DNA of 64,000 bases from contig NZ_CH902583.1 of assembly GCF_000152965.1 (NCBI RefSeq), positions 2,919,694-2,983,693 on the forward strand, in the 5' to 3' direction. The position numbers and the translations under genes are program-made. This DNA comes from Roseobacter sp. MED193 (GTDB taxonomy: Bacteria; Pseudomonadota; Alphaproteobacteria; Rhodobacterales; Rhodobacteraceae). Positions 446 through 33,017 of this stretch are shown here, piece after piece; the stretch's first letter is position 1; each line of letters starts with the position of its first letter. The notes under the pieces were generated by a model. The model saw only the letters and a list, made by a program, of their open reading frames with translations, searched no databases and was not told where the DNA came from.

Positions 446-3274
<2,829 letters not shown>

Positions 3275-3319
3275 TCTAGTAATAGACAGCCAAGAACCAA
3301 ATAAGCACCACATGAACTT

Positions 3320-3377
3320 GTGACATAACAAAGGTGCAGCAACGTGCATTTGCCCGGCAAATACACTGCCTGCTGCG
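3320..3377 (+). repeat. Spacer stem-loop repeat, copy 1
   Basis: First copy of a duplicated element beginning GTGACATAAC. It folds as GCAGCA/TGCTGC, then GTG/CAC, then ATTTGC/GCAAAT around a short loop. The second copy is at 3444-3502 and keeps the same fold with different outer stem bases. Confidence 0.7.
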
Positions 3378-3382
3378 TGACA

Positions 3383-3402
3383 GACTTTACTTGCGTAAAG
3401 TC
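3383..3402 (+). other. Perfect 8-bp hairpin in the 23S-5S spacer
   Basis: GACTTTAC and GTAAAGTC flank a TTGC tetraloop. It lies between the two copies of the spacer stem-loop repeat. A role in pre-rRNA processing is plausible but not shown. Confidence 0.5.
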
Positions 3403-3443
3403 GTCAGTGTTGATTGTTTCCCTGCGATCTTGGAAATGTCCTC

Positions 3444-3502
3444 GTGACATAACTGGGGTGCGGTCTCTCGGGCATTTGCGATGCAAATACCCTGCCGACC
3501 GC
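3444..3502 (+). repeat. Spacer stem-loop repeat, copy 2
   Basis: Second copy of the element, again beginning GTGACATAAC. The stem is GCGGTC/GACCGC, GGG/CCC, ATTTGC/GCAAAT. Compared with copy 1, the outer and middle stems changed on both sides together, so pairing is kept. That covariation indicates a structure maintained at RNA level. Confidence 0.7.
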
Positions 3503-3510
3503 CAACCAAA

Positions 3511-3543
3511 AAAATCCAAGAACCGCAGGTTCTTGGATTTTTC
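3511..3543 (+). terminator. Terminator-like hairpin between 23S and 5S
   Basis: AAATCCAAGAACC and GGTTCTTGGATTT form a 13-bp stem with a GCA loop, directly followed by a T-run. It looks like an intrinsic terminator but lies inside the rRNA operon, just before 5S. rRNA antitermination would have to read through it, or it acts as a processing hairpin. Confidence 0.5.
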
Positions 3544-3546
3544 TTG

Positions 3547-3663
3547 GTTTGGTGGCGATAGCGAGAGCAAAACACCCGGTCCCATCCCGAACCCGGAAGT
3601 TAAGTGCCTTTGCGCCAATGGTACTGCGGCTTAAGTCGTGGGAGAGTAGGTCACTGCCAAACC
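3547..3663 (+). rRNA. rrf: 5S ribosomal RNA
   Basis: Recognised by the alphaproteobacterial 5S sequence: GTTTGGTGGCGATAGCGAGA at the 5' end, CCCATCCCGAACCCGGAAGT in the middle, and the complementary CTGCCAAACC at the 3' end. It follows 23S by about 270 bases, in the normal order. Confidence 0.95.
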
Positions 3664-3710
3664 TAGTAAAATCCAAAAAATCTCTAAACGATATAAACTT
3701 CCGACACTGA

Positions 3711-3787
<77 letters not shown>

Positions 3788-3842
3788 GCTCTACTTGTAA
3801 AGTAGAGCCCACCGACAAAGCCCCTTCGGGGGCTTTTGTCGT
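3788..3842 (+). terminator. rRNA operon terminator region
   Basis: Two hairpins follow the tRNA. GCTCTACTT/AAGTAGAGC (3788-3808) comes first, then a GC-rich GACAAAGCCCC/GGGGCTTTTGTC stem with TTC loop (3813-3840) and trailing T-rich sequence. The second is the likely intrinsic terminator of the rRNA-tRNA operon. Confidence 0.75.
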
Positions 3843-4058
3843 TCTACCGCTAAGCTCTTGATGCACTGGTTGAAGTTTAGAAAGCTCCGCTGCAATGCGG
3901 ACGCTTTCCGATGAAGTTGCAACCGACAGAATGCCTGCCAGATCGCCAATCAGATCAACCGTCAATTCTTCACCCGTCTCGTTGGGGGTGAGGACTACTT
4001 GGTCGATCATGGCGCGCAGATGCTGTGAGGCTTCTGCACGTGTCTCTGAGTTGTTCAT
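3843..4058 (-). pseudogene. C-terminal remnant of a large serine recombinase
   Basis: The minus-strand frame reads LRAMIDQVVLTPNETGEELT followed by VDLIGDLAGILSVA. This resembles the extreme C-terminal region of large serine recombinases common in roseobacters. The catalytic and zinc-ribbon parts are absent, and the frame runs on into the antisense of the tRNA, so this is a fragment. It abuts the VirD4 fragment upstream, which suggests a recombination or deletion junction near 4060. The family call is from memory of similar proteins. Confidence 0.55.
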
Positions 4059-4061
4059 GGT

Positions 4062-4419
4062 CTGTCAGGTAGGCCAGCAGCATGAACAGCCGAGTCTCGG
4101 CAAAGGGGTGGGTTCGGCTTGTCTCTTTGCCGCGTTCTTCCCGTTCGGTGATATCCACGTCACCGGGTTTGAGCCAATCCAGTGGATTGAAGCAGGCTGC
4201 ATCAAACCCCTCGACATTGGCGATGTTCCAGGGATCGACGATTTGCACGTCCTGTCCCATCGCCATGCGGGCGGCTGCAGTGATCTTGGCGTTCTCTCCT
4301 TTCGGGTCGATGATTACGGTGGAGCCCTTGTAGGTCAGCAGGTTCGGGATGATCTGGGTGGTGCCTTTGCCCGAACGAGTGGGGGCAACGGTCAGGCAAT
4401 GGCGGTCGCCCTTGGACAA
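4062..4419 (-). pseudogene. VirD4/TraG coupling protein fragment
   Basis: A minus-strand fragment of a type IV secretion coupling ATPase. The Walker A region APTRSGKGTTQIIPNLL is followed by GSTVIIDPKGENAKI and DPWNIANVEGFDAACFNPLD, which match the family. Full-length proteins are about 600 residues or more; only about 100 residues are recognisable here, and both the N-terminal membrane part and the C-terminal two thirds are missing. It is evidence of a former conjugative or mobilisable element and cannot be functional. Confidence 0.75.
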
Positions 4420-4613
4420 AGAGCAAACGTGCGCTGCAGCGTGATGGGTGTACTCAGACGCGGAAATTTGCTGCCATTTGCCCGTACAACCCTAGCTCAT
4501 GCAGACAGCTCCCCCGCTCGCAATGGCATATCCTTGTAGCGAAAGAACTTTGCGTTTTGTTCATTAGACGGAACACGAAAGAATAGTGGCTCGCAAATTT
4601 CGCCTTTTGCGCT

Positions 4614-4742
4614 ATAATCCAAAATTATTTCACAGCCTGAGGTTGTTGCGACAGGGTCACATTTTGACGTGACCGCCCGACATTTAGTCTTTTTACCTTG
4701 TGTCGAGTCGCAATATATTGTGCGTATATCAATCCAAGGAGG
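4614..4742 (+). promoter_or_regulatory. Candidate promoter, operator and Shine-Dalgarno of the protease operon
   Basis: A consensus -10 hexamer TATAAT lies at 4614-4619 without a good -35. An inverted repeat GGTCAC-N8-GTGACC follows at 4655-4674 and could be an operator. AAGGAGG at 4736-4742 is a strong ribosome binding site six bases before the ATG at 4749 and decides that start. The rest of 4420-4748 shows no gene. Confidence 0.4.
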
Positions 4743-4748
4743 TACCTA

Positions 4749-5912
4749 ATGTGCTTAGACATTTTTCGTGCCAAGCTTTTGGCTAATAGTTTCCTTTCAT
4801 TCGCGTCTGTAGCGGTGGCATTTTTGACCAGCGATGCGGTGCTTGCGCAAACGTCCATTGAAGAAACGAAGGCGGCGCTTAGCGCTGCAACTACGACGCT
4901 TGCCAGTTCACAGGCCAAACCCGACCAGATAACAAAAGAGCTTACAGCGCTGAAAGCTCAGATTGCTGAGATGGAGGAACGCAGCGCACCCGAAGCGCTG
5001 CGCGCAGACGCAGCATCGGTTCTGACGCTGGTTGAACTTTTACGCTATGCGCGCACTGATTCAAATGTAATAGACGCAATCGCCGATCTACGCAGTGCTC
5101 TGGCAATCTACGACGCACCGGACCCGGTTGGAACACTTGCGGTGTTGCGGACGCGGATTGAATCGCTTGACCCAGACAAAACCGTCCCGCCAACAGCCAC
5201 TGGCGTCCAAGAGGCGCTTGTCAAGATTTTGGAAGAGGCGCTGGCGTTGGAGGCAAAGTTGCCGAATGCCGCCGCAGTCGCACGCGCCAAACATCTGGCG
5301 GATTTGATCGAAAGCCAAAAAAGCGCTTTGTTACAGTCGTCAGTTTCAACGGCTTTTGAAACACTAGCAATGGCTCTACCGCCGCTAATTTACCGCAAAC
5401 CGGCCGAGGCTGCTGGCGCGCAAATCGATGCGCTGGAGGGTACGCTGACCGAGTTGAACGATGAAGCCAATGAAAACCTCGTCACCGCGAAAGGAGACAA
5501 ACTGCGCTCGCTGGCTGTAAAGATTGACAAGGTCCTTGGGACCGCCGATCCGCGGCTGGTGATCGTGTCTGCCCGTTTTGGCGATTTCCGTCCCGGAGTT
5601 GACATCGGCCGGACCTGTAATGCTACAGCTCAGGTGCGTTCGAAATGCACAGGTAAGAATTCCTGCGTACTTGAGGCCGAATTCAGCGACGCCGATAAAT
5701 TGTGTGGCTATAACCCAGCTCCGACTGCGCCGGAAGGTGCCCTGACACTGCGGGCGTCCTATGGCTGCGAGGCTGCAACACGCGCGGAATGGCTGGCTCT
5801 GATGGCCTATCCTGGCACCCTTTCTGACGATCGTGCGCCGACCCAAAGGATTTACCCAGGCCCGCTGGGCACAATTGCCTGCGCGCCTAACCGTCCGAGT
5901 GTTCTCGAATGA
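4749..5912 (+). CDS. Exported protein with C-terminal SUEL/galactose-binding-lectin-like domain
   Basis: A 387-residue protein with an N-terminal signal peptide (hydrophobic core to about residue 27, then AQT). A long alanine/leucine-rich helical region (about 30-265) with heptad-like segments follows. Residues about 270-340 contain ARFGDF, GRTCNATAQ, KCTGKNSCVLEAEF and LRASYGC. The cysteine spacing resembles the rhamnose/galactose-binding SUEL lectin domain (Gal_Lectin); this is pattern recognition only. The ATG at 4749 is chosen for its AAGGAGG site over an in-frame ATG at 4698. It is the first gene of five that all overlap by four bases, so it is very likely co-translated with them. A binding or adaptor role in the periplasm or at the surface is inferred. 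Confidence 0.75.
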   Translation: MCLDIFRAKLLANSFLSFASVAVAFLTSDAVLAQTSIEETKAALSAATTTLASSQAKPDQITKELTALKAQIAEMEERSAPEALRADAASVLTLVELLRYARTDSNVIDAIADLRSALAIYDAPDPVGTLAVLRTRIESLDPDKTVPPTATGVQEALVKILEEALALEAKLPNAAAVARAKHLADLIESQKSALLQSSVSTAFETLAMALPPLIYRKPAEAAGAQIDALEGTLTELNDEANENLVTAKGDKLRSLAVKIDKVLGTADPRLVIVSARFGDFRPGVDIGRTCNATAQVRSKCTGKNSCVLEAEFSDADKLCGYNPAPTAPEGALTLRASYGCEAATRAEWLALMAYPGTLSDDRAPTQRIYPGPLGTIACAPNRPSVLE

Positions 5913-7303
5913 TGCGCGGGCTGATTTTCGCGCTAGGGGTGTGCGGGGTGCTTGCCGCGTGCCAGACAGTCATGGAATCAAACGCAGTGGGTGTTGGGCA
6001 AGCAGGCAGCTGCGCGTCGCATCTGGGATCTTACCAGCTTGCGACCTCGCGACTGAAAATCACCGTCAGTGCAAGCGATGCCGAGGGCTCGGTCAAGACC
6101 TTTCTGGATGAGCTCGAGGCCGCACCGCGCGCGGATTCTAGCCGGATCTACTGCCTGAATCACCTCGCTTCTGGCACCGCCAATGACAAGGTCGTGGTGC
6201 GCCGCTCCAAGCGGGTGGATGACCAAGCTGCGTTCATTGACACCCCGCTTCGAACTAGGCGTGAGGCGTTGGCGAATGACGAAATCCCAGACGCGGTGGG
6301 CCAAGACACCAGCATGCTGCAGCTGATCTCAAGCCGAGCCATAGACCAGTCCGCGCTAATTGCGCGCAAATTTATCCGCACGGGAGTTGCGATCCACACC
6401 AACCGGGTTTCAAAAAGCTTGGGCACATTTTCCCTGCGCGCGGCCGGGGTGCCAGACAAACCAAAGTCATTCGAGATTGACCCGTTTAACCCTGTGAAAA
6501 TGGCACAAATCAACATGGCCCTGCGCGATTTCGGCTATTGTGTTGCCTTCGGCAATTACACCGTCGCTGATACGTCGCCCGCGGGGCTTGCGCGCTATTG
6601 CAAAGACCCGCAGGGCACAACGCGCGCAGCCTATCCGCCGCGCGCCCGTATCGCGGCGCCCGAACCGCCTGCAAACAAGTCCCAAGGCGTGTTCTACCGT
6701 CCGCGTCAGCCCTATTCGGTCTATGTACTGGCTAATCCGGACCCATACGGACTAGGACAGTGGGCGCCCGTTGCTGTGCGTACAGTGGCAATGGAAAACC
6801 GCGCGCCTGTTCTGTCGGTGGGCGTGGACCGCGCGACCTTTGCTGCCCGTCAGACGGCGTTGGTGTTTGACAACGGCGCGTTGACCGATGTGTGTATGGC
6901 TAAGGGTTCCGAGGTTTTGGGCGCTATTGAAATCCCGATTGAACTGGTCAGCGGAATTGTACGCTCCCCGATTACCGCCATTCGGCAAGCCACTAATGTC
7001 GCAAGCGCCCGCGCGGAGCTGGCCAAGATCGAAACCACGGTCATTAAACTTCAAGAAGCGCAGATCGCGCTTGAGGCGGAACGCGCGACAACGGAGCAAC
7101 AGGCTCTGCTGAATCAAGTCCGCGAGCGCAACGTAGATGCGCCGCTGGCCGGACCTATCAGCGATTTGTCCCCGCTGCAGATCGACACCAGCGATTTGGT
7201 CGCACCAACGACCGGACTGCAGAAGGGCGACAGGCTGCAGGACCTTTGCGCCAGTCTTTTTGCCGCAAGTGATTTCGCAGCAGCTCCGGCGGAAAGCCAA
7301 TGA
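5909..7303 (+). CDS. Lipoprotein paralog 1 of the protease operon
   Basis: A 464-residue predicted lipoprotein. The signal peptide ends in a lipobox LAAC with Cys18 and Gln at +2, which favours the outer membrane. The middle contains DPFNPVKMAQINMALRDFGY and PDPYGLGQWAPV, and then VDRATFAARQTALVFDNGAL; all are echoed in the next gene, so the two are tandem paralogs. Residues about 370-405 are charged and alanine/glutamate-rich (ELAKIETTVIKLQEAQIALE) and probably form a coiled coil. The start overlaps the previous stop (ATGA); a second ATG follows immediately at 5912. I do not recognise a named family. Confidence 0.8.
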   Translation: MMRGLIFALGVCGVLAACQTVMESNAVGVGQAGSCASHLGSYQLATSRLKITVSASDAEGSVKTFLDELEAAPRADSSRIYCLNHLASGTANDKVVVRRSKRVDDQAAFIDTPLRTRREALANDEIPDAVGQDTSMLQLISSRAIDQSALIARKFIRTGVAIHTNRVSKSLGTFSLRAAGVPDKPKSFEIDPFNPVKMAQINMALRDFGYCVAFGNYTVADTSPAGLARYCKDPQGTTRAAYPPRARIAAPEPPANKSQGVFYRPRQPYSVYVLANPDPYGLGQWAPVAVRTVAMENRAPVLSVGVDRATFAARQTALVFDNGALTDVCMAKGSEVLGAIEIPIELVSGIVRSPITAIRQATNVASARAELAKIETTVIKLQEAQIALEAERATTEQQALLNQVRERNVDAPLAGPISDLSPLQIDTSDLVAPTTGLQKGDRLQDLCASLFAASDFAAAPAESQ

Positions 7304-8598
7304 TGCGGTGGCTCCTTTACAGTATTGCACTGTTATTCTTGGTCGGCTGTTCGGGTCCTTTGCAGACCGTGGGCAGCATTGGCGCCGGTGGGGTCTGCTT
7401 GGACGGCGACGGCGGCTATCAGATGCCGCAGCGGAACCTAGTCTTTGCTGTTACTGAAGAGACAAGCACTCAATTTGCTTTCAGTTATGAGCTTGGCGCA
7501 GCCATGGGTGATGATGGCGATGTCTACTGCTTGGCCTATCGGGGCTCGGGAACAGCCTCGGACCAAATCGCGCTGGACATCAAAGACGGCCTTTTGCAGC
7601 GGGTCTATTCCAAAACTATCGACCAGACAGTCGGCATCGCCGCGCGCGTGCGCGAAGGTTTGGCACAGGCTGCAGACCGGGAGTTCTCGCTGAACCTTGA
7701 AGGAAAGCCAAGCGTCCGGCAATTGGAGGTCGATCCCTTCGACCTAGAGGCAATGGTTTTTGCCAACGCGGCGCTGCGTCCTTATGGCTATTGCGTCTAC
7801 CTTGATGCCTCAAACGACCCTTACGTGCCTCGGTGGTCAAATGCCCTTTGCCCGCAGCCCGGCTCAGCTGGTCAAGCCATGGCGGGAAGCTTTAGAGCCG
7901 GCGCGGACGGCAAACTGGGCAAAGGTGGGCTTTCCGACACTGACTTGGATGGAACGAATCTGCGATCCTTGACCACCGACCCGATCGACGGTGTGCTCTA
8001 TAAGCCGAACCTAACCCATGACCTAGTCGTTCTGCGCAGCCAGGACCCCAGCGGTCTAGGGTCGTGGAAGCTTCATTCCGTTGCGCCCATTCGACTACCT
8101 AATGCGGCACCAACGCTGATCGCCCGGATCGACCGCGGCGCCTTTGTCACACGCGAAAGCGAGCTTGTGTTCGAAGACGGCGTGCTGGTCGATGCAGCGC
8201 TGGAAAAAACATCAGAGGTGAACGCGGTCGTCGACCTGACGATAGAGGTGTTCAACACAATCTTCTCGATCCCGGTCCAAATCCTAAAGCTTGAAGCCAA
8301 TGAGGCCGCGAACCGTCAAGGCCTCATCGCCGCAAACGCGCAGCTTTTGGAGGAAACGCGCAATTACCGCGAAGCGCTTGAGTCGCTTGACGCGACCGAG
8401 AAGGAGATCGTCGAAGAGCAAGCGGTCGAGGCGCTGGAGGCGCGCCTAACAAAAGCATGCGAAGAGGGCATTCAAAATGAAGGCGATGACGAAGACTATC
8501 AATCACGCGTTACAAGCTGCTTGTTAGAGGCCAAAAAATGCGCTCCGGAAGATGAGTCGTGTATCGCGGAAGCTGTCAGGGAAGCTGATTCACTATGA
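7300..8598 (+). CDS. Lipoprotein paralog 2 of the protease operon
   Basis: A 432-residue predicted lipoprotein with lipobox LVGC (Cys17) and Ser at +2, again suited to the outer membrane. It shares DPFDLEAMVFANAALRPYGY, GVLYKP, QDPSGLGSWKLHSVAPIRLP and IDRGAF..ESELVFEDGVL with the preceding protein. The C-terminal part (about 325-400) is a likely coiled coil, followed by a cysteine-containing acidic tail with CLLEAKKCAPEDESC. It overlaps both neighbours by four bases. No known family is recognised. Two lipid-anchored paralogs next to two secreted proteases suggest anchoring, chaperoning or inhibition, but that is inference. Confidence 0.8.
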   Translation: MMRWLLYSIALLFLVGCSGPLQTVGSIGAGGVCLDGDGGYQMPQRNLVFAVTEETSTQFAFSYELGAAMGDDGDVYCLAYRGSGTASDQIALDIKDGLLQRVYSKTIDQTVGIAARVREGLAQAADREFSLNLEGKPSVRQLEVDPFDLEAMVFANAALRPYGYCVYLDASNDPYVPRWSNALCPQPGSAGQAMAGSFRAGADGKLGKGGLSDTDLDGTNLRSLTTDPIDGVLYKPNLTHDLVVLRSQDPSGLGSWKLHSVAPIRLPNAAPTLIARIDRGAFVTRESELVFEDGVLVDAALEKTSEVNAVVDLTIEVFNTIFSIPVQILKLEANEAANRQGLIAANAQLLEETRNYREALESLDATEKEIVEEQAVEALEARLTKACEEGIQNEGDDEDYQSRVTSCLLEAKKCAPEDESCIAEAVREADSL

Positions 8599-9794
8599 CT
8601 CGCACAGCGCTCAACCTTTTCCTGTGCTTGGCTCTTGCCCTGCCCATATCCACAGCGGCCCAAGACTTTGCGATCTCGGATCGAGCCAGCGCTGAAGAGC
8701 AGGCGATGCTAGAGGCGCTGATTGCGCGCGCAGAAGAGGCCTCAGGCGCGGGCACGCCGGACTATGACCCGAGCGTCTACTACGCGACGTTAGAGACCGG
8801 GCTTATGCGCCTGATGGGCCAAGCCGGTGCCGAAGCGCGCAGCGCAAGCGTCCTGTCACTGGATCCATCGACCATCCATGCCAGCGATGCTGCCATCGAA
8901 CGGGTCAGCGACGACACGGAATTACAAGACTCACTAAACCAGATTGTCGAACGCATCCGCGCAGGCCTGCGCGTCATTGGCGGGCAGACAGCCAAGGCGG
9001 GCCAGTTTACCAGTGCGGTAGCATTGGTTTCTGGGAACAACAACACAGGCTGCAGCGGCGTAGTGATCGAAGCGGGCTGGATCCTGACCGCGGCGCATTG
9101 TTACTGCGATTTTCGGCTAGACCAAGACCGTGTCGTTCGGGCGGTCTTTGCCAATCCCGTGATCACCCAATCTACTGATGATGCGTTCGTCCTGAAGGGC
9201 GAGATGATGGATGACGATTTCTGCGACAAACGGGACAGTGGATCGATCTGCTCACCAGACCTCGCGCTATTGCGTTACACGGTGACGGACACGCCCGATT
9301 ACGTTATCCCTGCCAAGATTGCCGATGCCGCTGAGGCCGCGGCCCATGTCGCTGTAGGGGGGACGCGCGGTTCTCTCCTCGTAGGCTTTGGCGCGACTCG
9401 GCCGCAGTCCTCTACTTCCGGGGTGGGGGCCCCGTGGAGCCCACAGCGCGCCAACCCAAAAACTTGGGGCCTGATCCCCCGGGTTTTGTCCTGCAAAAAG
9501 GCAAAATCCTGCACAGCAGGTAACGACCCCCGCGGCTGCGCCTTGGATATTGATGTCGAAATGATGGACGCCACTGCCCGGACTCCTGGCGACGTGACCG
9601 ATGCCTGCCACGGGGATAGCGGAGGGCCAGTCTACTTACCCCGCTCTGCAACCGACAACCCGCGCATCTTTGCCATCACCTCTCGCGCGGCGGATCAGAA
9701 TGGGCACTGCGGCGAAGGTGCGATTTACCCCAAAGTCTACACGCAAAGCGTGCGAAATTGGATTGATGATGCCAAAGGGAGGCTTTCGCAATGA
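8595..9794 (+). CDS. Secreted trypsin-like serine protease (S1 family) zymogen
   Basis: A 399-residue protein with a signal peptide (to about 22), a pro-region of roughly 104 residues, then a chymotrypsin-fold domain. The catalytic triad is His168 in LTAAHC, Asp222 in SPDLALL and Ser342 in CHGDSGGP. Asp336, six residues before Ser342, corresponds to Asp189 of trypsin and predicts cleavage after Arg/Lys. The domain begins GLRVIGGQTAKAGQF. Arg126-Val127-Ile-Gly-Gly is the classic activation site, where cleavage frees a Val-Ile-Gly-Gly N-terminus. Paired cysteines are consistent with folding in the oxidising periplasm or outside. It overlaps both neighbouring genes by four bases. The activating protease is unknown; self-cleavage or the caspase-like neighbour are both possible. 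Confidence 0.92.
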   Translation: MTRTALNLFLCLALALPISTAAQDFAISDRASAEEQAMLEALIARAEEASGAGTPDYDPSVYYATLETGLMRLMGQAGAEARSASVLSLDPSTIHASDAAIERVSDDTELQDSLNQIVERIRAGLRVIGGQTAKAGQFTSAVALVSGNNNTGCSGVVIEAGWILTAAHCYCDFRLDQDRVVRAVFANPVITQSTDDAFVLKGEMMDDDFCDKRDSGSICSPDLALLRYTVTDTPDYVIPAKIADAAEAAAHVAVGGTRGSLLVGFGATRPQSSTSGVGAPWSPQRANPKTWGLIPRVLSCKKAKSCTAGNDPRGCALDIDVEMMDATARTPGDVTDACHGDSGGPVYLPRSATDNPRIFAITSRAADQNGHCGEGAIYPKVYTQSVRNWIDDAKGRLSQ

Positions 9795-11794
9795 CGCAAG
9801 TCCAAGCAAAGCTGTATACCGTTCTGATGGCGACCTTGGTTTGGGCAGCGGCTGCGCCTGTGGGCCATGCTCAAGACACTGGCCTCTGCGGTGACCTGGA
9901 AAACTGCTGCGATTATGCCATTAACGACCAATGCAGCGCTGCCCAGTATACGGGGGACCGACTATCATTGGTTGTAGGTGTCGACCTCTATGACACCGGG
10001 ATCGCACAGATTTACTACAACGACTTGCAGAATGCTGTGAATGACGCGCGCGAGATCGGAAAAGTGATGTCCGCATCTGGGGTCCAGACGCGTTTTGTCT
10101 TCAACCCTAGCCTTGCCAAGCTTAACCGGGAGCTATTGACGCTCGCGCTTCATGTTGGCGAACGCGAAGACTATGTGCGTGCCAGCGGATACGATGAGAG
10201 GCCATTCGTCAAAGTCTATTTTGCCGGACATGGTCTGCGTGGTGAGGACGCACGCGACTACCTGATCCTTCCGATTACACAGCCCGGCTTTACTGCTCGC
10301 GATGACTATCTTTTGGCGACAGATGCGGTAGCGGGCTACTTTTCTGGGCTTAAACAGTTCGACTTCACCTTTGTATTTGACGCTTGCCGCACCTTTGTCA
10401 GTCTGCCAGCCGATAGCCACAGCGCCGGACGCGGTGTCGGGCGGGCATTTGGATCGCCAAACTTTTTCAACGCAAATGTCAGTCAATACATGACGGTGTT
10501 ATCAACCTCGCCGCTGACCGCGGCCAGCGATGTAGCTCCCGATCGCGACGACATGGGACTGTTTGCACGTTACTTTACCTACTTCCTGTCGAAACCCGGA
10601 CTACAATTCGCGGACGTCGTGGCGCTGACCGGCTGGTTTGTCAAAGCAGCCAATCCCGGGCAGGAACCGGTGACCAACAGTTCTCCCGCGCCGGGGATCA
10701 ACGGACGGCGGCTGACCGATGTAGCGGGCACAGATACCTGCAGCATGGCTGAGTTGACGCTGTTTGACGAGTTGAAGAATGCGCAAATGTGCGGTACCTA
10801 TTCGCCCGGCCAAAATCGCGCTTGCGTTAACCGCATAGCAACGGTCCTGATCCAGGGCGCGGCCGCAGAAGGCATTGATTTGAAGAGGCTTTTGCAGAAA
10901 TGCCCAATCCTGGAAGAAAGCCTAGCTCTTTTGGATTCGGATGACCTAATAGTATCCGCGTCGGAGACTCTGGAACCGTTAATTTCGGAACGCGCAAACG
11001 CTCCCCTCCCTACGATCCGCGCGGACTTTCTGATGCCCGGCAGCATCGCGCTTGATGGCAGCTCATATGCTGGTTCACCAGGCTGGAACAACTCGACTGC
11101 CCCAGAGCGCCACGCACTGACCTCGCTTTACGCTTTTGCAGGCCAAGGCCAGTCGGCCCAGGCCTATCTTGGCACTCGAGGCAGCGCGCTTTTAAACCCG
11201 CCGAGCTTGAGTGACACAACCCGATTTGGCAATCTCAGCGACAGCGTTGAACGCTTGGCTGGCGTTCCTATCGAAGTACCTGGCACACTTGATATTCTTC
11301 GCGCGCCCAGCCCGGATGCCGACCGGATCTTTGAACGCCTGCCGAGGGGCGGAACCGCGCGTCTAGATTGCGTCAATGTTCAATGTGACGGTGAATTTTT
11401 AGGCATCACAGTTTACAATGATCGTGGCGGTTTGGTCCGAGGCTTTGTTGCGGCCGAAGAACTGTATGCTAAAGCAATTCCACCGGCGGAGGCAGAACGG
11501 TATCTGGTAAGGTTTGAGGATGGCGTCTTTGATCCTCGCGCCGATCAGATCGACGCGCTGGCCGATGTGCTGCGTAGCGCGCCTTTGGATGCCACGGTCG
11601 CAATTTGGTCGGTACAGTCGCAAGGGTCGACCAATGAATTTTTTGAGACCCGCATCCGGACCGAACGCGTTCTAGAACAGCTGGAAGCTCTAGTGCCTGA
11701 ACAGACGAATCTGCGCAACCGCGTGTCCGAGCTAACGTTGGCAGAATCGGGATTTGGACCGGACGCGTTTGTTGTCGAGCTGATCTACAACTAA
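9791..11794 (+). CDS. Secreted caspase-like (C14/metacaspase-type) cysteine protease
   Basis: A 667-residue exported protein (signal peptide ending near VGHAQ, about 28). Residues 57-300 form a caspase-like domain: LSLVVGVDLYD, DAREIGKVMSASGVQTRFVF, the histidine motif VYFAGHG (His147) and the cysteine motif FVFDACR (Cys199). The middle region (about 310-490) is unassigned. Residues about 495-560 look like a small beta-rich (SH3-like) domain with DCVNVQCDGEFLGI. The end (about 570-667, from VRFEDGVFDPRADQIDALAD) resembles a degenerate OmpA-like peptidoglycan-binding fold, which is a weak call. Bacterial caspase-like proteins often cut after Arg/Lys, which would fit activation of the trypsin zymogen encoded just upstream. 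It is the last gene of the operon; no clear terminator follows. Confidence 0.85.
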   Translation: MTQVQAKLYTVLMATLVWAAAAPVGHAQDTGLCGDLENCCDYAINDQCSAAQYTGDRLSLVVGVDLYDTGIAQIYYNDLQNAVNDAREIGKVMSASGVQTRFVFNPSLAKLNRELLTLALHVGEREDYVRASGYDERPFVKVYFAGHGLRGEDARDYLILPITQPGFTARDDYLLATDAVAGYFSGLKQFDFTFVFDACRTFVSLPADSHSAGRGVGRAFGSPNFFNANVSQYMTVLSTSPLTAASDVAPDRDDMGLFARYFTYFLSKPGLQFADVVALTGWFVKAANPGQEPVTNSSPAPGINGRRLTDVAGTDTCSMAELTLFDELKNAQMCGTYSPGQNRACVNRIATVLIQGAAAEGIDLKRLLQKCPILEESLALLDSDDLIVSASETLEPLISERANAPLPTIRADFLMPGSIALDGSSYAGSPGWNNSTAPERHALTSLYAFAGQGQSAQAYLGTRGSALLNPPSLSDTTRFGNLSDSVERLAGVPIEVPGTLDILRAPSPDADRIFERLPRGGTARLDCVNVQCDGEFLGITVYNDRGGLVRGFVAAEELYAKAIPPAEAERYLVRFEDGVFDPRADQIDALADVLRSAPLDATVAIWSVQSQGSTNEFFETRIRTERVLEQLEALVPEQTNLRNRVSELTLAESGFGPDAFVVELIYN

Positions 11795-12238
11795 TCACGT
11801 CGGACAGGGAAGGAAATTTGCGCTTTTTTCAGAGAGCGTCGAAACCTTGAAACGTGCCGCCAAGATTTGTGAAATTCATGACCTCAATACAAAGTGTGCA
11901 TAGCTAGTTGGCTTTTGTTGATGGTGGCTCTATGCCACGACCTGTGAACTCCTCGCCAAAACTTCGCGGTACCATAAACGAATGGCGGCGATCTCTTCCG
12001 CCGCGCAGCATTGATTATCGAGCACTGGCAGCAATTTCCGCGCTGCGCGCGCTCGCAGCGAGAATACTGAATGCACAGGTTGGGCTCCGACGGTGAATTC
12101 GCCGCGCCGCACTTGAAGGGCAGCTATCCCGCAAGCGGTCTCCAATCGACGGGTTATCGGTCTGCCTTGCTAAGACTGCCGTATCAGTAATGTGAGAACG
12201 TAGTACGCAATCACTTGAGATTATGCTGAAAACCGCTG
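11795..12238. other. Gene-free stretch after the protease operon
   Basis: About 440 bases without a convincing gene. The short frames on either strand lack ribosome binding sites and recognisable motifs. It lies between the convergent ends of the protease operon and the relaxase gene. Confidence 0.5.
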
Positions 12239-13510
12239 TTACCTTGAAAGCCCGCGTGTGCGCCTGCGCTGGCGATCTCTCTGCAACTGGTGCGGATCGC
12301 GGAGCCTGCGCAAGCTGGCGATGACATTGCGCATCATGATGTGGCGGTCTTTTTTCTGATCCTCGCGGAGCGTCTGCATCCTTTTCTGCAGTTTCTTGCG
12401 TTCTTTCATCTGGGCAATCACCAGCCGGTCCCGTTGGGCCTGATCCCGTTTGGCGCATCTGTAGGACTCGCGCTCATTCTTGCTTCGGGTGAGTTTGGCG
12501 GCTCCCGTCAGGCGGTCAAAGAGGCCGCGCAATCCTTTGTTGAGCTTGGCGGACCGGGCCTTTGTTTCTTCCTGCCAGCGTTTGGCCTGTCCCTCTTTCA
12601 GTTTTTGCCGTTCGCGGCGGTGCTCTGCCTTCAGGACGCGGTGCTCTGAACTCAGCGGTTCGCGGGCCTGAGCTTGGTTGGATTTGATCTCCTCAATATA
12701 GCCGCGCATCTGCTGGGTGATTTTGCGATTCAATTCCGCACGGGTCTCGAGAACCGAGGGCAGCGACCCCGGATCACCAAAACGGGCCTTCACCTCTTTG
12801 GCTTTCATTCCAGCCCACTTGGGGATCGAGTAGACATTCCCGTCCACGTCCAGGGCGACAAAGCCGCGCCGGTCGCCTTGGGCCAGGAAGTACCCCCGCT
12901 CTTCCAAGGCATTTTTGAAACCGACCTGACTGTCTGATCTTTCCCAGGCGGCTTGAAACAGCTGTTTGATCTCTCTGGGATCAATGCCGATGCGCTTGGC
13001 CTGCTGCCACTCAGCAAGGGTGAAATTCAACGGGCTCTTTGCGCCATAACTTTGCAGCCCTTTGGGCAGTTCCCAGCCATGATCGAGAAACAGATCGCGC
13101 GACATGTCGCGCAGTTTGTTTTTAAAGTGCGGTAGATTGATTGCTTTCAGCTCTTCCCCGTTAATTCGGGACCAGACAACATGGGCATGGCGTCTTCCCT
13201 CTTTCTCATGGATGACAATGGCCCGGGGCTGGCCGCCAAGGCCAAGCTGGTCTTCGATGCGCTCTGCAGCATTCAGACATTGCTCTTCGCTGGCGACATG
13301 ATCCTGGGGCGGGTTCAAACTGAGAGAGAACAGATACTGGCGGCAACGCGTTGCTTTGGAAATTGCATAGGCTTCAGCAAAGGCGCCATGCAGATCCTCT
13401 GCCATGAACCCGCGTGTTTCCAGCAGCTCAATGTGATCATTGTCGAGGCTATTTGTCAGATGGTCTGCCAGAGCGGCAGCACCTGAACGCTGGGAAGCTT
13501 TGAGGATCAT
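12239..13510 (-). CDS. Relaxase/mobilisation nuclease (MOBP-like)
   Basis: A 423-residue plasmid or element mobilisation protein that would nick DNA at an oriT. The N-terminus MILKASQRSGAAALADHL and the HxH metal motif in GRRHAHVVWSRIN (about residues 106-118) are typical of relaxases found on roseobacter mobile elements. The C-terminal third is highly charged (KERKKLQKRMQTLREDQKK) and is probably a coiled or DNA-binding tail. The start overlaps the mobC stop by four bases. No intact coupling protein or secretion genes lie nearby; the VirD4 piece at 4062-4419 is on the other side of the protease operon. Transfer would therefore need help in trans. Confidence 0.85.
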   Translation of the reverse strand: MILKASQRSGAAALADHLTNSLDNDHIELLETRGFMAEDLHGAFAEAYAISKATRCRQYLFSLSLNPPQDHVASEEQCLNAAERIEDQLGLGGQPRAIVIHEKEGRRHAHVVWSRINGEELKAINLPHFKNKLRDMSRDLFLDHGWELPKGLQSYGAKSPLNFTLAEWQQAKRIGIDPREIKQLFQAAWERSDSQVGFKNALEERGYFLAQGDRRGFVALDVDGNVYSIPKWAGMKAKEVKARFGDPGSLPSVLETRAELNRKITQQMRGYIEEIKSNQAQAREPLSSEHRVLKAEHRRERQKLKEGQAKRWQEETKARSAKLNKGLRGLFDRLTGAAKLTRSKNERESYRCAKRDQAQRDRLVIAQMKERKKLQKRMQTLREDQKKDRHIMMRNVIASLRRLRDPHQLQRDRQRRRTRGLSR

Positions 13511-13887
13511 GATTTTGCCCCCAGCGCCTGCAGCAAGGTGCTGCGTATCCAGGTAACTTCAGTGGCAGCGGCTTTCAAGTCGCTGTCCAAATCGGGATCA
13601 ACAATCAGAGTTCCTTGGTTCAGGTGTTTGGCAATCTGATTGAGATTGCTGGCCATGCGGGAAGCACCGAGATGGGCAAGCAGTTCTGCCAGTAACTTTG
13701 CATCCAGCTCCGGTGTTTGGCGGCGCGATCGGTAGCGCGGTGCATTGTCAGTAAAGACAATAGACTTGATGTAACCGGCCAAAGACAGACAGCCCGCGCG
13801 CTGTTCCAGCAGCGCGCGTTCCTCTGCCGTGAGGCGGATGGACAATGGAGGAATGCGTTTTGATTGTGTGCTCTGTGCCTGATCCAT
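13507..13887 (-). CDS. mobC: MobC-like relaxosome accessory protein
   Basis: A 126-residue protein. The N-terminal part contains PPLSIRLTAEERALLEQRAG, a ribbon-helix-helix-like segment, and SLAGYIKSIVF. The C-terminal part contains LGASRMASNLNQIAKHLNQG, the MobC signature region. Such proteins bind near oriT and help the relaxase open the DNA. The gene is immediately upstream of, and overlaps, the relaxase gene on the same strand, the usual mob order. oriT would be expected upstream, at 13890-14240, but I cannot pinpoint it. Confidence 0.8.
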   Translation of the reverse strand: MDQAQSTQSKRIPPLSIRLTAEERALLEQRAGCLSLAGYIKSIVFTDNAPRYRSRRQTPELDAKLLAELLAHLGASRMASNLNQIAKHLNQGTLIVDPDLDSDLKAAATEVTWIRSTLLQALGAKS

Positions 13888-13896
13888 TGCTGCCCA

Positions 13897-14160
13897 TTAG
13901 GGGAATGTCAGCGTTGGCAGACCCAGCAGAGCATCATAATCGATCTCTGTCTTTGGCCGCTGTACCGCTGATAAATCCCATGCTGCGTGCAACAAGGAGC
14001 GCTTACGGCGGGCCCCCGCAACCAGCGCTGCTTGCGCTGGCGTCAGAGGAAATTCCGGATCCGGCAAGCCGCGCTTAAAGCGAGCTCCCGCAACCAGGTC
14101 GGAACGGCCTGCAGCATAACCCTTCGAGACCGTTTCTTTGTGACCCTGACTCAGACTGGC
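13897..14160 (-). other. Unassigned open frame with an internal repeat, perhaps a mob-associated remnant
   Basis: The minus-strand frame shows two copies of a short motif, LVAGARFKR and LVAGARRKR, separated by GLPDPEFPLTPAQAA. It ends KTEIDYDALLGLPTLTFP just before mobC. The composition looks coding, but no clear start or ribosome binding site is visible and the frame runs back into the antisense of queF. It may be the tail of a truncated gene of the mobilisation module. The surrounding 350 bases hold nothing else recognised. Confidence 0.3.
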
Positions 14161-14239
14161 TCTGTTAACATGGCCGACATTGGAAGTTCGCCGCGAGGTG
14201 CTCCAATGTCGGCAATAGCCAGGGCCAGTTTTGTAGTTT

Positions 14240-14704
14240 TCAGCCCCTACCCCGATAGGGAGGAACACCTTGATCTGGGATCCAAACCCCTTCTGGCACG
14301 GGCCCTGTTTGCCAGAAAACATCGATCGGGATACCTCCGCGCGGATACCAGTAGCCCCCAATCCGCAGCCATTGCGGATCTAAGAAATCGGCCAGGCGCC
14401 GGGCAATGGAGATGGTGCAATCCTCATGGAAAGCGCCATGGTTACGAAAGGAGGTCAGGTAAAGCTTGAGAGATTTTGACTCGATTAGCCAGGGCCCTGG
14501 AACATAGTCGATAACAAGATGGGCAAAGTCTGGCTGACCGGTCATCGGGCACAGCGAAGTGAACTCGGGTGCGGTGAAACGCACGTTATAGGCCACATCG
14601 GCCTGAGGGTTGGGCACCCGCTCCAATTCAGCCTCTTCGGGGCTGGTGGGGATGCGGGTTTCGCCGCCCAGCTGCTTGAGATTACTGTAGATGTCTTCAG
14701 ACAT
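14240..14704 (-). CDS. queF: NADPH-dependent 7-cyano-7-deazaguanine reductase QueF
   Basis: A 154-residue short-type QueF that reduces preQ0 to preQ1 in queuosine synthesis (cytoplasm). The active-site Cys is in [18 protein letters not shown], with the catalytic Asp in the same segment. The QueF motif follows in [20 protein letters not shown], which contains the substrate-binding Glu. The length fits the single-domain form. The ATG at 14704 (protein [14 protein letters not shown]) has GGAG upstream and is preferred to an ATG 27 bases earlier. The gene directly upstream is a truncated queE, so the queE-queF pair has been broken at its 5' side. Confidence 0.95.
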
Positions 14705-14720: not shown

Positions 14721-14985
14721 TCAGACGCCACGCTTATTGCCCCAAATCAGGACATGAAGCCGCGGCAGAATACGGGGGGCGAACCAGCCATCGGCCATCG
14801 CCTTGGCAGTGAGCCAGCCCAGCCGGTCAGTCAGAGCGTGCAGATCAACCGGTATGTCTGGCTCGACCTCCGGGTTGCCAGGCTGAAGGTAGAGCGGAAG
14901 GTCGCTGTAACGCGCATGGACCTCTTGTGCCCATTGGTAGTCAGCCTCGTCAAAAATCACGATTTTCATAACCTGCTGGCGCGCG
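14721..14985 (-). pseudogene. queE: Truncated 7-carboxy-7-deazaguanine synthase (queE 3' end)
   Basis: Only about the last 85 codons are present: KIVIFDEADYQWAQEVHARY, LYLQPGNPEVEPDIPV, and the conserved end [15 protein letters not shown]. The radical-SAM N-terminal part with the CxxxCxxC cluster is absent. Homology stops near 14985, where a truncated DUF1772 gene begins on the opposite strand. This copy cannot be functional; another queE would be needed for queuosine synthesis from this pathway. Confidence 0.85.
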
Positions 14986-14997
14986 CGGGAGCCAAGC

Positions 14998-15267
14998 TTG
15001 CGACCCGCCGGAACGCTGATCATGCTGGCTGGGCTGGTCTATCTTGTCGGCTGTTTCGGCGTGACCGTCTTCTTCAATGTCCCGATGAATGAGGCCTTGG
15101 CGGGAATGGAGATGTCGTCCGACAGCACCCGTGAGTACTGGCTTCGGACCTATGTTCCCCGGTGGACGTTCTGGAATTCTGTGCGGGCCGTCGCCTGTAT
15201 CGTATCAGCCGCAATGCTTCTCTTCGGGCTGTTCTGGATGATCCAGATCCAAACACAACCGGCGTGA
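14998..15267 (+). pseudogene. Truncated DUF1772 (anthrone-oxygenase-like) membrane protein
   Basis: The C-terminal part of a DUF1772 protein: YLVGCFGVTVFFNVPMNEAL, then YVPRWTFWNSVRAVACIVSA and a final membrane segment. The family usually has about 150-160 residues with four membrane helices; here about 89 codons remain, opening with TTG at 14998. The missing N-terminal half meets the missing half of queE, so both were lost in one rearrangement. Confidence 0.7.
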
Positions 15268-15486
15268 TGCGGGCTCAAAGCCGATAGGCCCGCGCCGTCC
15301 GGTATGGCCCACCAATCACTTTTCACTTTGCAATCAAAAATCGCGAGTTCCGCAAAGCGGTCATTCTCTGCGACTTGAAGAATGTGCTACTCTGGGCTCG
15401 GTACCGACCAACGCCGCATTCATGGCATTCCTCGACTCGATGGCCCGCATAATGCGACGTCTCACTCAAACTGATCGAAAGCAACA

Positions 15487-16374
15487 ATGGACAAGCTCTC
15501 CGTCATGAACGCCTTCCGCCGTATTGTCGAGCGTGGCAGCTTTGCGCGTGCGGCGGAGGATCTGCGTGTGTCACCCGCCCTTCTCAGCCGTGAGATCAAG
15601 CTTTTGGAGGAGAGCCTGGGCACGGTATTGCTCACTCGCACGACCCGTTCGATGTCACTCACCGATGCCGGTCAGCTCTTCTATGACGAAGCTTCAGGGA
15701 TTCTTGATGCCGTATTCCAGGTCGAGACCCGCATCCGTGACGGCGCCGGGGAAATACGCGGTCATCTCAAGGTGAACGCTTCCAGTTCCTTCGGTCAGAC
15801 CGTCATTGCGCCGATCCTGCCCGGGTTATTCGACGCCTATCCCGACCTACGTCTGACGCTGTCGCTGGACGACCGGGTGATCGACATGGTGGAGGGCGGC
15901 TTTGATGTTTCCATTCGGATTCGGGCGGCCATGCCGGATTCCGCGCTTGTGGCGCGCAAGCTGGGGAGGACGCGGCAACAGGTTTTTGCCGCGCCGTCTT
16001 ACCTGGAAAGTGTCGGTGCTCCGCAAAAGCCGCAGGACGTTGTCAATCACCGTGTCATCGGTTTTTTGCTTGCCGATCATCTCTCCGCCTGGACCCTTCA
16101 TAGTCCGTCAGAAACAGTGACCGTGGATCTTGATCCACCCATCCGCGTCGGCAACAGCCTTGTCCTGCGCGATCTGCTGATCGCCGGCCAGGGCATCGGC
16201 ACCTTGCCGGATTTCGTTTCAAAGGATGCGGTCGCGCGCGGTGAGCTGGTCCGCGTGCTGCCCGATTGGGAACTGCCTGCACCGGAAATCTACGCGGTGA
16301 CGGCCTCGCGTCTCGGTATGGATGCGAAGGTCACGGCGTTTCTCGATCATCTGTGCGAGGCGCTGCGCCCCTGA
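15487..16374 (+). CDS. LysR-family transcriptional regulator
   Basis: A 295-residue regulator with an N-terminal winged helix-turn-helix (MNAFRRIVERGSFARAAEDL, VSPALLSREIKLLEESLGT, residues about 6-50). A periplasmic-binding-like effector domain follows (about 88-290, from GHLKVNASSSFGQTV). It is close to the CrgA-type LysR group by the first-helix motif. It lies directly upstream of, and co-directional with, the wrbA-like gene, which it may control. The effector is unknown; the neighbouring quinone reductase and DsbA-like genes suggest redox or electrophile stress, as inference. Confidence 0.9.
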   Translation: MDKLSVMNAFRRIVERGSFARAAEDLRVSPALLSREIKLLEESLGTVLLTRTTRSMSLTDAGQLFYDEASGILDAVFQVETRIRDGAGEIRGHLKVNASSSFGQTVIAPILPGLFDAYPDLRLTLSLDDRVIDMVEGGFDVSIRIRAAMPDSALVARKLGRTRQQVFAAPSYLESVGAPQKPQDVVNHRVIGFLLADHLSAWTLHSPSETVTVDLDPPIRVGNSLVLRDLLIAGQGIGTLPDFVSKDAVARGELVRVLPDWELPAPEIYAVTASRLGMDAKVTAFLDHLCEALRP

Positions 16375-16481
16375 CATTCTTCAACCCACGTAAAGAGTGA
16401 AGTGAAAGCGGGCCGGTTATTCCGGACCGCCTCATCCGCGATCTTCTCAGGTGACGAAACCCATATCTTTGAGAGGATCCC

Positions 16482-17105
16482 ATGACCCGTGTTCTTGTTC
16501 TTTACTATTCCAGCTACGGCCATGTGCGCGCACTTGCCGAGGCTGAGGCCGAAGGCGCACGTTCGGTGCCCGGCACCCATGTCGATTTGCGGCGCGTGCC
16601 TGAAACCCTGCTTGCAGATATCCGGCAGAAGGCCGGATTCGCAGCGGATGAAACGCCAGCTGCGACCCCTGCTGATCTAGAAGATTATGACGCTATTATC
16701 TTCGGCACCCCAACGCTGTTCGGCATGATGGCCGGCCAGATGAAATCGTTCCTCGATCAAGCAGGCGGCCTGTGGGCGCGGAATGCGCTGGTTGGCAAGG
16801 TCGCGGCCGTCTTTGCCTCCACTGGCTCGCAGCATGGTGGTCATGAGGCAACGCTGCTGTCGACCCAGATCCCGCTTCAGCACTTCGGAATGCTGATCGC
16901 AGGCATGCCCTACACGTTTGCTGGTCAGAAGACGGGCGAGGAAATCGTAGGCGGCGCACCTTATGGTGCCGGCACCATCGCCGGGGCCGACGGGTCGCGC
17001 ACACCGTCCGAGACCGACCTTGCAGGCGCGCACTTCCAAGGCGCGCACGTCGCCCGGATCGCCGCGCGCCTGTCGGGGGTAGATTGGCAAGAGGAGGCCG
17101 CGTGA
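16482..17105 (+). CDS. wrbA: WrbA-type NAD(P)H:quinone oxidoreductase
   Basis: A 207-residue flavodoxin-like protein that binds FMN and reduces quinones by two electrons, avoiding semiquinones. The FMN loop is YYSSYGHVRALAEAEAEGA. GTPTLFGMMAGQMKSFLDQ and STGSQHGGHEATLLS are characteristic of the WrbA family. AGGATCC precedes the ATG. Its TGA stop overlaps the ATG of the DsbA-like gene by one base, so the two are an operon. Confidence 0.92.
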   Translation: MTRVLVLYYSSYGHVRALAEAEAEGARSVPGTHVDLRRVPETLLADIRQKAGFAADETPAATPADLEDYDAIIFGTPTLFGMMAGQMKSFLDQAGGLWARNALVGKVAAVFASTGSQHGGHEATLLSTQIPLQHFGMLIAGMPYTFAGQKTGEEIVGGAPYGAGTIAGADGSRTPSETDLAGAHFQGAHVARIAARLSGVDWQEEAA

Positions 17106-31349: not shown

Positions 31350-31621
31350 TGCTTTAGGCCCGCAAAGAACTGGGTGGCTTTTTTTAAGATCTCCCTCTCC
31401 TCCTTCAGGAGCCGGTTCTCCCGTCGAAGTCGATCATTCTCTTGAGCCAGGCTCAAATCCTCTTTGGAAACCACGTCTGTGTCTCGGTGTGCAGTGATCC
31501 ATTTGTTCAACGTCGACATGCCAACACCCAGATCGTCAGCCACCTGCTTACGCGTCAGCCCACTGGTTAATGCGATGCGCACCGCATCTTGTCGAAATTC
31601 GTCTGTCCGTTTCAGTCCCAT
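31346..31621 (-). CDS. IS3-family transposase OrfA
   Basis: A 91-residue helix-turn-helix protein (DEFRQDAVRIALTSGLTRKQ, LGVGMSTLNKWI) with a C-terminal leucine zipper-like segment (ENDRLRRENRLLKEEREILK). AGGAGA precedes the ATG. The slippery A7 stretch near the end of the frame and the four-base overlap with orfB are as expected for this family. Confidence 0.95.
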   Translation of the reverse strand: MGLKRTDEFRQDAVRIALTSGLTRKQVADDLGVGMSTLNKWITAHRDTDVVSKEDLSLAQENDRLRRENRLLKEEREILKKATQFFAGLKQ

Positions 31622-31684
31622 AGTTCATCTCCTTTGTTGCAGTAAATGCTATCAAAGGAGCGGCATCAAACCGTGACAGGTCCA

Positions 31685-32766: not shown

Positions 32767-32914
32767 ACAACATACCACATTTTATACCACTCATGGAAAG
32801 CATATGGGGGAGATCGAAAGAAATCCAACAAAAAGAATGAAGCGAGTAAGTAGAGGGAAATAAATGAAAAAGGCCGTGCAAGGCGACCCGTTCAATGCCA
32901 GCAAAAAGGTATGG

Positions 32915-32931
32915 TGGCGGAGACGAAGGGA
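32915..32931. repeat. att copy 1 (distal)
   Basis: TGGCGGAGACGAAGGGA, identical to the 3' end of tRNA-Ser(GCT) including the CCA complement. It separates island A from the older remnant with the truncated P4-type integrase. Confidence 0.85.
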
Positions 32932-32994
32932 AGCTCCACCAACGACCCCTAAGCCATTTTAATCGTTGAATATCATATGCTTCCAGACTAGCAA

Positions 32995-33017
32995 TTGGTC
33001 AATGGCGTTGGTCAATG
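32995..33017 (+). repeat. Direct repeats TTGGTCAATG, left arm of island A
   Basis: Two exact copies at 32995-33004 and 33008-33017, 13 bp apart, just before the integrase gene. Matching copies lie at the other end of the island (38023-38055). They are candidate arm-type binding sites of the island A integrase. Confidence 0.65.

Follow-up and report, generated by a model that had tools for sequence, protein, structure and literature searches.

Closest described systems

In animals, zymogen serine-protease cascades start from pattern-recognition proteins, as in the complement lectin pathway and the insect clip-protease cascades; MBL and ficolins have a lectin fold other than the RBL type. Here, we analysed a 64,000-nucleotide stretch of Roseobacter sp. 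MED193 (contig NZ_CH902583.1, positions 2,919,694 to 2,983,693 of the forward strand; hereafter, the window), which carries an operon of five genes encoding a lectin-like protein (P1), a pair of lipoproteins (P2 and P3), a trypsin (S1) and a caspase homolog (C14). As judged from its sequence, this cassette is similar to the animal cascades in having a secreted S1A trypsin with an R|VIGG site, a lectin-like partner and an extracytoplasmic setting, whereas it differs from them in the addition of a caspase homolog and lipid anchors; the S1A similarity is generic.

Among bacteria, the MoxR-vWA-VMAP, STAND/EAD and NucA-trypsin conflict systems have trypsin or caspase peptidases beside putative sensor domains (PMC7159879, PMC10907252). 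As far as the excerpts of these papers go, the cassette shares with them the trypsin and the caspase beside putative sensor domains, C-type lectin folds being among theirs. In contrast, these systems rest on NTPases, EAD/Trypco adapters or nucleases, as do the bacterial immune caspases and trypsins described in the excerpted passages (PMC7159879, PMC12799240, PMC10907252), whereas the cassette products look exported, and no NTPase or EAD/Trypco adapter family reached the cut-off in any of the five (Pfam, NCBIfam). In the Canu caspase-nuclease loci and in trypsin-nuclease pairs, a protease activates an adjacent MBL-fold pro-nuclease, the caspase being MALT1-like (PMC12799240, in the part cited here). 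The cassette is similar in that a protease possibly switches on a proenzyme encoded next door; unlike in those pairs as excerpted, the candidate proenzyme here is an exported trypsin, and no nuclease family was found at the cut-off in the five products (Pfam, NCBIfam) or in the second trypsin of a homologous locus in Rhizobium sp. R634.

For four strains of Rhizobium, a survey of 2012 mentions a metacaspase operon that contains a protease (PMC3501461) and that may be this locus; its passage on that operon names no genes and mentions no lectin-like protein, lipoprotein pair, zymogen, export or mobility. The same survey, in its excerpt, gives no localisation information for 529 of 671 bacterial caspase homologs, which are numerous and mostly without known role or location. 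No description of the five-gene set was found in the open-licence literature searched. We rate the system as new by its composition and location, with the reservation that the folds of both proteases are familiar and that the function proposed below is a prediction from sequence. The cassette points to an RBL-lectin-like domain in bacteria and to a lipoprotein family without a Pfam match. By combining an exported caspase with a lipoprotein pair, a lectin-like protein and an exported, putative zymogen of trypsin, it would allow proteolytic signalling or immunity outside the bacterial cytoplasm to be tested directly.

A conserved module of five overlapping genes

The features of the operon are as follows.

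4736..4742 (approximate by a base or two), plus strand: ribosome-binding site AAGGAGG before the first gene, from sequence
4749..5912, plus strand: P1 (P0001, 387 amino acids), with a signal peptide, a probably helical middle and a C-terminal cysteine-rich lectin-like domain
5538..5786, plus strand: SUEL/RBL-lectin-like domain of P1 (residues ~264-346), suggested by cysteine pattern, sub-cut-off Pfam line and low-confidence model
5909..7303, plus strand: P2 (P0002, 464 amino acids), lipoprotein with lipobox LAAC
7300..8598, plus strand: P3 (P0003, 432 amino acids), lipoprotein paralogous to P2, with lipobox LVGC
8595..9794, plus strand: S1 (P0004, 399 amino acids), exported trypsin with triad H168/D222/S342 and S1-pocket D336
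8970..8984, plus strand: R126|VIGG of the trypsin, a candidate site of zymogen activation, from sequence and the start of the Pfam match
9791..11794, plus strand: C14 (P0005, 667 amino acids), exported caspase homolog with dyad H147/C199

An earlier note, made from the letters of the window, had claimed five genes joined by four-base overlaps, and ATGA is indeed present at all four junctions. The same overlap occurs in 5 of 30 other same-strand pairs at most 150 bp apart in the window (simple gene caller), a background from which four of four would arise by chance with a probability near 8e-4. These overlaps represent translational coupling, which is ordinary for an operon and by itself no proof of fixed ratios. 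The next open reading frames (ORFs) drawn downstream, at 12239-13887, are on the opposite strand. Pfam, NCBIfam and PADLOC 2.0.0 profiles were run on all five products; NCBIfam and PADLOC added nothing reliable.

The earlier note had let its proposal depend on co-occurrence of the genes elsewhere, and all five were found in the same order at three other loci. A tblastn search of P0002 against 72,556 plasmid records gave two matches, R. johnstonii pRlX4 and R. leguminosarum WSM1325 pR132503, and both of these Rhizobium plasmids carry P1, P2, P3, the S1 peptidase and the caspase in order, together with a sixth gene for a second trypsin. A scan with two patterns over one genome per species, for 84,980 species, gave two further loci, a contig of Rhizobium sp. 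R634 with all six genes and a contig of a Mesorhizobium metagenome-assembled genome with the first four. In total, four loci (the window included) have all five genes in order and one has the first four, counts that may understate the spread, as the genome searches drew samples and scored few candidates per genome, and the species-wide scan used two patterns only. Each member of the core was recovered by phmmer in all four other loci, with E values of 2.8e-12 to 9.8e-9 for P1, 5.4e-52 to 7.6e-45 for P2, 2.3e-44 to 2.8e-42 for P3 and 1e-9 to 1.5e-7 for S1. The four-base overlaps of P1/P2 and P3/S1 are likewise present in all four homologous loci, with the exception that the Mesorhizobium P2 codon there is CTG and its start uncertain.

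In a BLASTN comparison of the WSM1325 and R634 loci, a single segment was aligned, 7068-14552 of the WSM1325 locus, corresponding to the six genes only: homology extends from some 40 bases ahead of P1 through the sixth gene, and no similarity was found in the rest of the two loci. DNA homology to the R. johnstonii locus was likewise confined to the cassette. The ratios of nonsynonymous to synonymous divergence (dN/dS) between WSM1325 and R634 were 0.12 for P1, 0.07 for P2, 0.03 for P3, 0.12 for S1, 0.13 for the caspase and 0.13 for the second trypsin, values that are rough because dS, at 1.2-2.9, is near saturation. Taken together, these data support the five genes as a real, conserved, exported module. 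The interpretation given in the earlier note is supported in part: the module keeps its catalytic residues and mostly lies in mobile or plasmid surroundings, whereas a cascade of the two proteases, a use in defence, competition or predation and a fixed stoichiometry are conjectural, and the caspase is the least constant part; the constant core comprises the lectin-like protein, the two lipoproteins and the trypsin.

Mobile surroundings and patchy distribution

In the window, the cassette lies between the end of a 23S-5S-tRNA-Met array with a truncated VirD4-type gene on one side, and a pair of relaxase and MobC-like genes on the other.

3970-4419, minus strand: truncated coupling-protein gene (VirD4-type) of a type IV secretion system
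12239-13510, minus strand: relaxase
13507-13887, minus strand: MobC-like gene

The coupling-protein fragment, the relaxase and the MobC-like gene around the operon are the remains of a mobilisable element. Both rhizobial cassette plasmids are typed as conjugative (PLSDB), an IS66 TnpB gene adjoins the WSM1325 cassette, and a Phage_integrase gene is located about 770 bases downstream of the R634 cassette. Four of the five loci, among them the window with the island-like setting noticed earlier, thus lie on plasmids or amid mobile elements, the Mesorhizobium contig being outside this count. Upstream of the R. johnstonii cassette, at 1802-4881 of that locus, HmaB of the Hma defence system is split over two ORFs, the second of which runs into a piece of HmaC, and the Hma locus looks broken.

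The operon is rare. A DNA search of 12 genomes from the genus detected it in one, and the lipoprotein family was found in 3 of 394 genomes of a family sample (with P0002), in 4 of 385 of a class sample (with a profile) and in 2 of 398 of a phylum sample (with a profile at E 1e-4); the strain's own genome is included in each of these three counts, the samples overlap, and few candidates per genome were scored.

Export signals and the lipoprotein pair

Reading of the N-termini by eye bore out the idea that all five products carry export or lipoprotein signals: the products of genes 1, 4 and 5 begin with Sec-type N-termini, and lipoboxes are present in those of gene 2 (LAAC, residues 15-18) and gene 3 (LVGC, residues 14-17). 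P2 and P3 are paralogs, as had been proposed, with a phmmer E value of 1.2e-33 between them and a lipobox on each, and neither has a Pfam match. Four cysteines after the lipidated one (C33, C77, C165 and C184 of P0003) are kept in six aligned lipoproteins, which fits an oxidising compartment. In a model of low confidence (predicted local distance difference test, pLDDT, 59.9), the heads are rich in beta structure and the tails helical. A tree of 17 lipoproteins placed P2 of all five loci in one group (support 100/99) and P3 of all five loci together (support 85/82). Since each group spans all loci, the duplication is older than the split between the window and the rhizobial loci, and both copies have been retained side by side.

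The two proteases

Two proteases of different classes had been claimed, and both were recognised above the Pfam cut-offs, P0004 by Trypsin (PF00089; E 8.8e-18, 65.4 bits against a cut-off of 20.6) and P0005 by Peptidase_C14 (E 2e-7, 31.4 bits against 21.4). In an alignment of ten proteases (five operon trypsins, one from Agrobacterium, one from Pseudomonas and three second trypsins; those of genomes G515 and G017 and a second Agrobacterium one were left out), H168, D222 and S342, the S1-pocket residue D336, and also C338 and C372 were invariant in all ten. The Pfam match in P0004 starts at V127 of LR|VIGG, that is, at a zymogen-type N-terminus, and in 8 of the 10 proteases, as read by eye, the residue just before the expected mature N-terminus is basic. 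These features suggest that the trypsin is made as a zymogen and activated by cleavage at R126|VIGG. The trypsin profile found its top relatives in the PDB among cascade zymogens, namely 'Gram-positive specific serine protease', plasma kallikrein and factor XI, the first and best of which we take to be a Drosophila immune protease; the same profile matches 551 sequences, and S1A kinship is generic. In the trypsin tree, branches were too long to place the window trypsin. A trypsin-like ORF was also noticed upstream of the core in the Mesorhizobium locus (5580-6434, minus strand), with a phmmer E value of 3.4e-18 to the second trypsin of R. johnstonii.

The caspase residues H147, D197 and C199 are retained in all four operon caspases, the Asp two positions before the Cys being of the metacaspase type. 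A profile of the four (rhizobial and window) gave weak matches to MALT1 and the metacaspase MCA2 in the PDB (E 0.01); P0005 alone matched no PDB chain at E 1. MALT1 and MCA2 have Arg specificity, and the D-x-C arrangement, with this weak kinship, suggests that the caspase may cleave after Arg or Lys. Window and rhizobial caspases are 19-23% identical overall and hardly alike outside the caspase domain, and the C-terminal part of P0005, about 390 residues, is of an unrecognised kind; an OmpA-like or SH3-like C-terminus, which had been an impression by eye, was dropped for want of Pfam or PDB support. Free-standing caspases of the strain's own family were placed nearer P0005 than the rhizobial operon caspases were, and none of 200 bootstrap trees (16 rows) united the four operon caspases. 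A single operon-caspase clade was not rejected (approximately unbiased test, p 0.259; 15 rows, the G515 row left out). These trees were built without loci L053, L054, L055 and L057, the first two and the last having no matching ORF. On these sequences, the window caspase cannot be shown to be an ortholog of the Rhizobium ones.

The lectin-like protein

The cysteine-rich domain of P1 had been called SUEL-like. The family call fell below the Pfam cut-off, while the fold found modest support in a structural re-alignment. Against the cut-off of 31.4 bits of Pfam SUEL (PF02140), the P1 domain alone scored 16.3 bits (E 0.013; whole protein, E 0.088) and the Mesorhizobium domain 13.2 bits (E 0.12), and the three Rhizobium domains gave no SUEL line. 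Six cysteines of the domain are invariant in 5 of 5 loci. A profile of the five domains found nothing at E 5 among PDB sequences, and Foldseek, with an AlphaFold model built from three sequences (mean pLDDT 60), found nothing below E 1.5. When the 36 Foldseek candidates were re-aligned, however, nine SUEL/RBL domains (latrophilins, CSL3) came at the top of the 18 results printed, with Z scores of 5.1-6.0 over 67-72 residues, values that, being below 8, may mean merely a common arrangement; malaria proteins (Z 4.2-4.7) and zona-pellucida-type modules (at most 2.5) followed. The re-alignment and the cysteine pattern suggest that the domain likely has a SUEL/RBL fold. Because the Pfam cut-off was not reached, we name P1 lectin-like and not a member of the SUEL family.

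Phage records searched with the R634 P1 gave no match. Four of the nine other neighbourhoods with lectin-like matches were inspected, and no protease was recognised by eye among the genes drawn there by the caller, which missed cysteine-rich genes. Genome G569 (contig C30, 9335-10507) has three lectin-like domain matches in a row (best E 5.9e-8), downstream of genes that appear by eye to be of the chemotaxis type.

Smaller and partial relatives

On Agrobacterium pAt (strain Ach5), a lipoprotein (phmmer E 6.9e-12 to P0002) overlaps by one base with a trypsin (2.7e-18 to the Mesorhizobium trypsin), and the lipoprotein is carried by four plasmid records. A smaller related unit thus consists of one lipoprotein and one trypsin. 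In genome G515, two trypsins and a WD40-caspase protein are encoded next to a lipoprotein of this family; in G017, the gene that comes after a family member matches Trypsin_2 weakly (22.3 bits, cut-off 27.6). No trypsin or caspase was recognised by eye near the lipoprotein relatives of G004, G616 and G1075 or near a second copy in G515. The protein upstream of the Pseudomonas plasmid trypsin is not detectably of the P2/P3 family. The WSM1325 caspase matches 136 plasmid records, and coverage of at least 80% was seen in two, which are the two cassette plasmids.

Proposed function and alternatives

We read the operon as an accessory cassette that is mobile and encodes a proteolytic module tethered to the envelope, whose likeliest benefit is protection of the cell surface, and give this reading a probability of roughly 0.4. 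In it, the P2/P3 pair would hold the set at the outer membrane and P1 would bind a glycan or protein ligand. The trypsin zymogen would be switched on by a cut at R126|VIGG, made either by P0005 as a metacaspase-type Arg/Lys protease or by the trypsin itself, whose S1-pocket Asp implies Arg/Lys specificity too, so that it could cut its own R126. The active trypsin would then cut foreign or damaged envelope proteins, and the cell would be shielded from biological attack by a phage, a competitor protein or a cationic peptide, rather than be fed. Caspase and trypsin zymogen might act on each other or on themselves, governed by the lipoproteins and by P1 as a sensor. A protective role is consistent with a distribution that is mobile and patchy, although the Hma neighbour is a single case. 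Complex formation, the order of activation, ligand, target and benefit are what we infer here, beside the observed gene order, conservation and active-site residues and the export read from the sequences. A more specific version appears decidedly unlikely: that an outer-membrane RBL-type lectin on a lipoprotein heterodimer senses a foreign surface, whereupon the exported caspase cuts the trypsin zymogen at R126|VIGG (in Rhizobium, also the second zymogen, after Lys), and an amplifying cascade, encoded by a 7-kb cassette moving between alphaproteobacteria, stops phages or rivals before entry.

Several observations weigh against this reading. No caspase was recognised by eye in the 21-kb Mesorhizobium locus, phmmer of P0005 found none of the rhizobial operon caspases at E 0.01, and three other plasmid caspase loci examined have no annotated trypsin adjoining. 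P0004 matches the second rhizobial trypsin (9e-11 to 1.1e-8) about as well as its positional partner, so that orthology to the latter rests on position, and the basic zymogen residue is absent from the Agrobacterium and Pseudomonas trypsins. The sugar-binding motifs of RBL domains look altered in the P1 domain, and structure comparison of the lipoprotein model (pLDDT 59.9) gave no standout match by which its fold could be settled. None of the five proteins had a PADLOC match below E 0.02, the weak lines obtained being LmuA/LmuB (0.021-0.026) and Avs1b (0.075), a result that also counts against an anti-phage role.

Chance neighbourhood without joint function is hardly conceivable. Each family does occur without the others (lipoproteins in G004, G616 and G1075; caspase-domain matches in 11 of 388 genomes of the strain's own family and lectin-like matches in 10 of 372 genomes at E 0.01, its own included in both), but the same order recurs across two bacterial orders with unrelated flanks, and with sharp edges and purifying selection in Rhizobium. 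We therefore rejected chance gene order on the phmmer-based order, the cassette-limited homology and the low dN/dS. Another explanation dispenses with the cascade and sees constitutive envelope or surface hydrolases, which would break down peptides rich in Arg or Lys (antimicrobial peptides, bacteriocins) or scavenge protein, with lipoproteins that merely anchor or chaperone. It is somewhat unlikely. In its favour, rhizobia meet cationic peptides on roots and in hosts, the S1 Asp (10 of 10 aligned) marks the trypsins as Arg/Lys-preferring, a preference also expected of the caspase, and the unit of lipoprotein and trypsin exists with no annotated caspase within 6 kb. Such hydrolases would need neither the lectin-like protein nor the caspase, whereas P1 has been retained in all five core loci, and the trypsins of the operons carry an N-terminal extension as well as a basic activation-site residue.

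A periplasmic or outer-membrane system against phages or conjugation, with a phage or mating-pair component as the ligand and proteolysis that blocks entry or kills the infected cell, would suit the plasmid and island settings. The R. johnstonii cassette lies about 2.3 kb from the broken Hma locus, and a gene for a TIR-AAA/TPR protein (G516 locus, 9210-12026, minus strand) about 1.8 kb from a distant lipoprotein relative; two reports describe defences that are activated by trypsins and caspases elsewhere (PMC12799240, PMC7159879). We nevertheless consider such a system unlikely, since, besides the PADLOC result, Pfam and NCBIfam gave for the cassette neither a nuclease or pore-former nor an NTPase or nucleotide sensor, and among ten neighbour proteins run in PADLOC (four from R. 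johnstonii, three from R634 and one each from WSM1325, L044 and G516; window and Mesorhizobium neighbours left out), clear defence matches were confined to the R. johnstonii locus, with weak TIR-type matches at G516. Very unlikely, too, is an antagonistic or self-destructive effector set, in which the proteases would be released from or turned on the envelope in a toxin-like manner or for programmed lysis. Two proteases with a possibly target-binding lectin-like protein might serve such an end, and bacterial caspase homologs are discussed in cell death in the excerpted survey (PMC3501461), but no secretion apparatus, immunity or lysis gene was recognised among the five products, which by eye have ordinary Sec and lipoprotein signals.

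Other features of the loci

An exported protein of 559-652 amino acids with a CxxCH motif flanks the cassette in R. johnstonii (14862-16541, minus strand) and in R634 (6205-8163, minus strand). The two are alike (phmmer 6.7e-46) and lie on opposite sides, the R634 one having no Pfam match, and they are possibly an occasional partner. Between the Hma remnant and the cassette of R. johnstonii, the product of 5102-5950 matches LmuA (3.8e-4) and RT-Protease_XI (5.3e-4) weakly in PADLOC and might be one more protease.

A clean tRNA-integrated island was considered for the window and rejected. No second copy of the 25-nt end of the tRNA proper was found when up to 3 mismatches were allowed. A repeat of 20 nt (3778-3797 and 14015-14034, the copies 90% alike) reaches the 3' end of the tRNA and is maybe due to chance; similarity beyond it is poor, and no integrase was recognised between its copies. 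Furthermore, the shared backbone to the right of the cassette, from ~14150, lies beside neither a tRNA nor the rRNA part of the window in five relatives, in one of which (G777) the contig ends 0.5 kb away, and no empty site emerged. A second island-like stretch of the window, 31346-42799, is located beside a tRNA-Ser gene (42827-42916) and contains ORFs that look by eye like those of an integrase and a resolvase.

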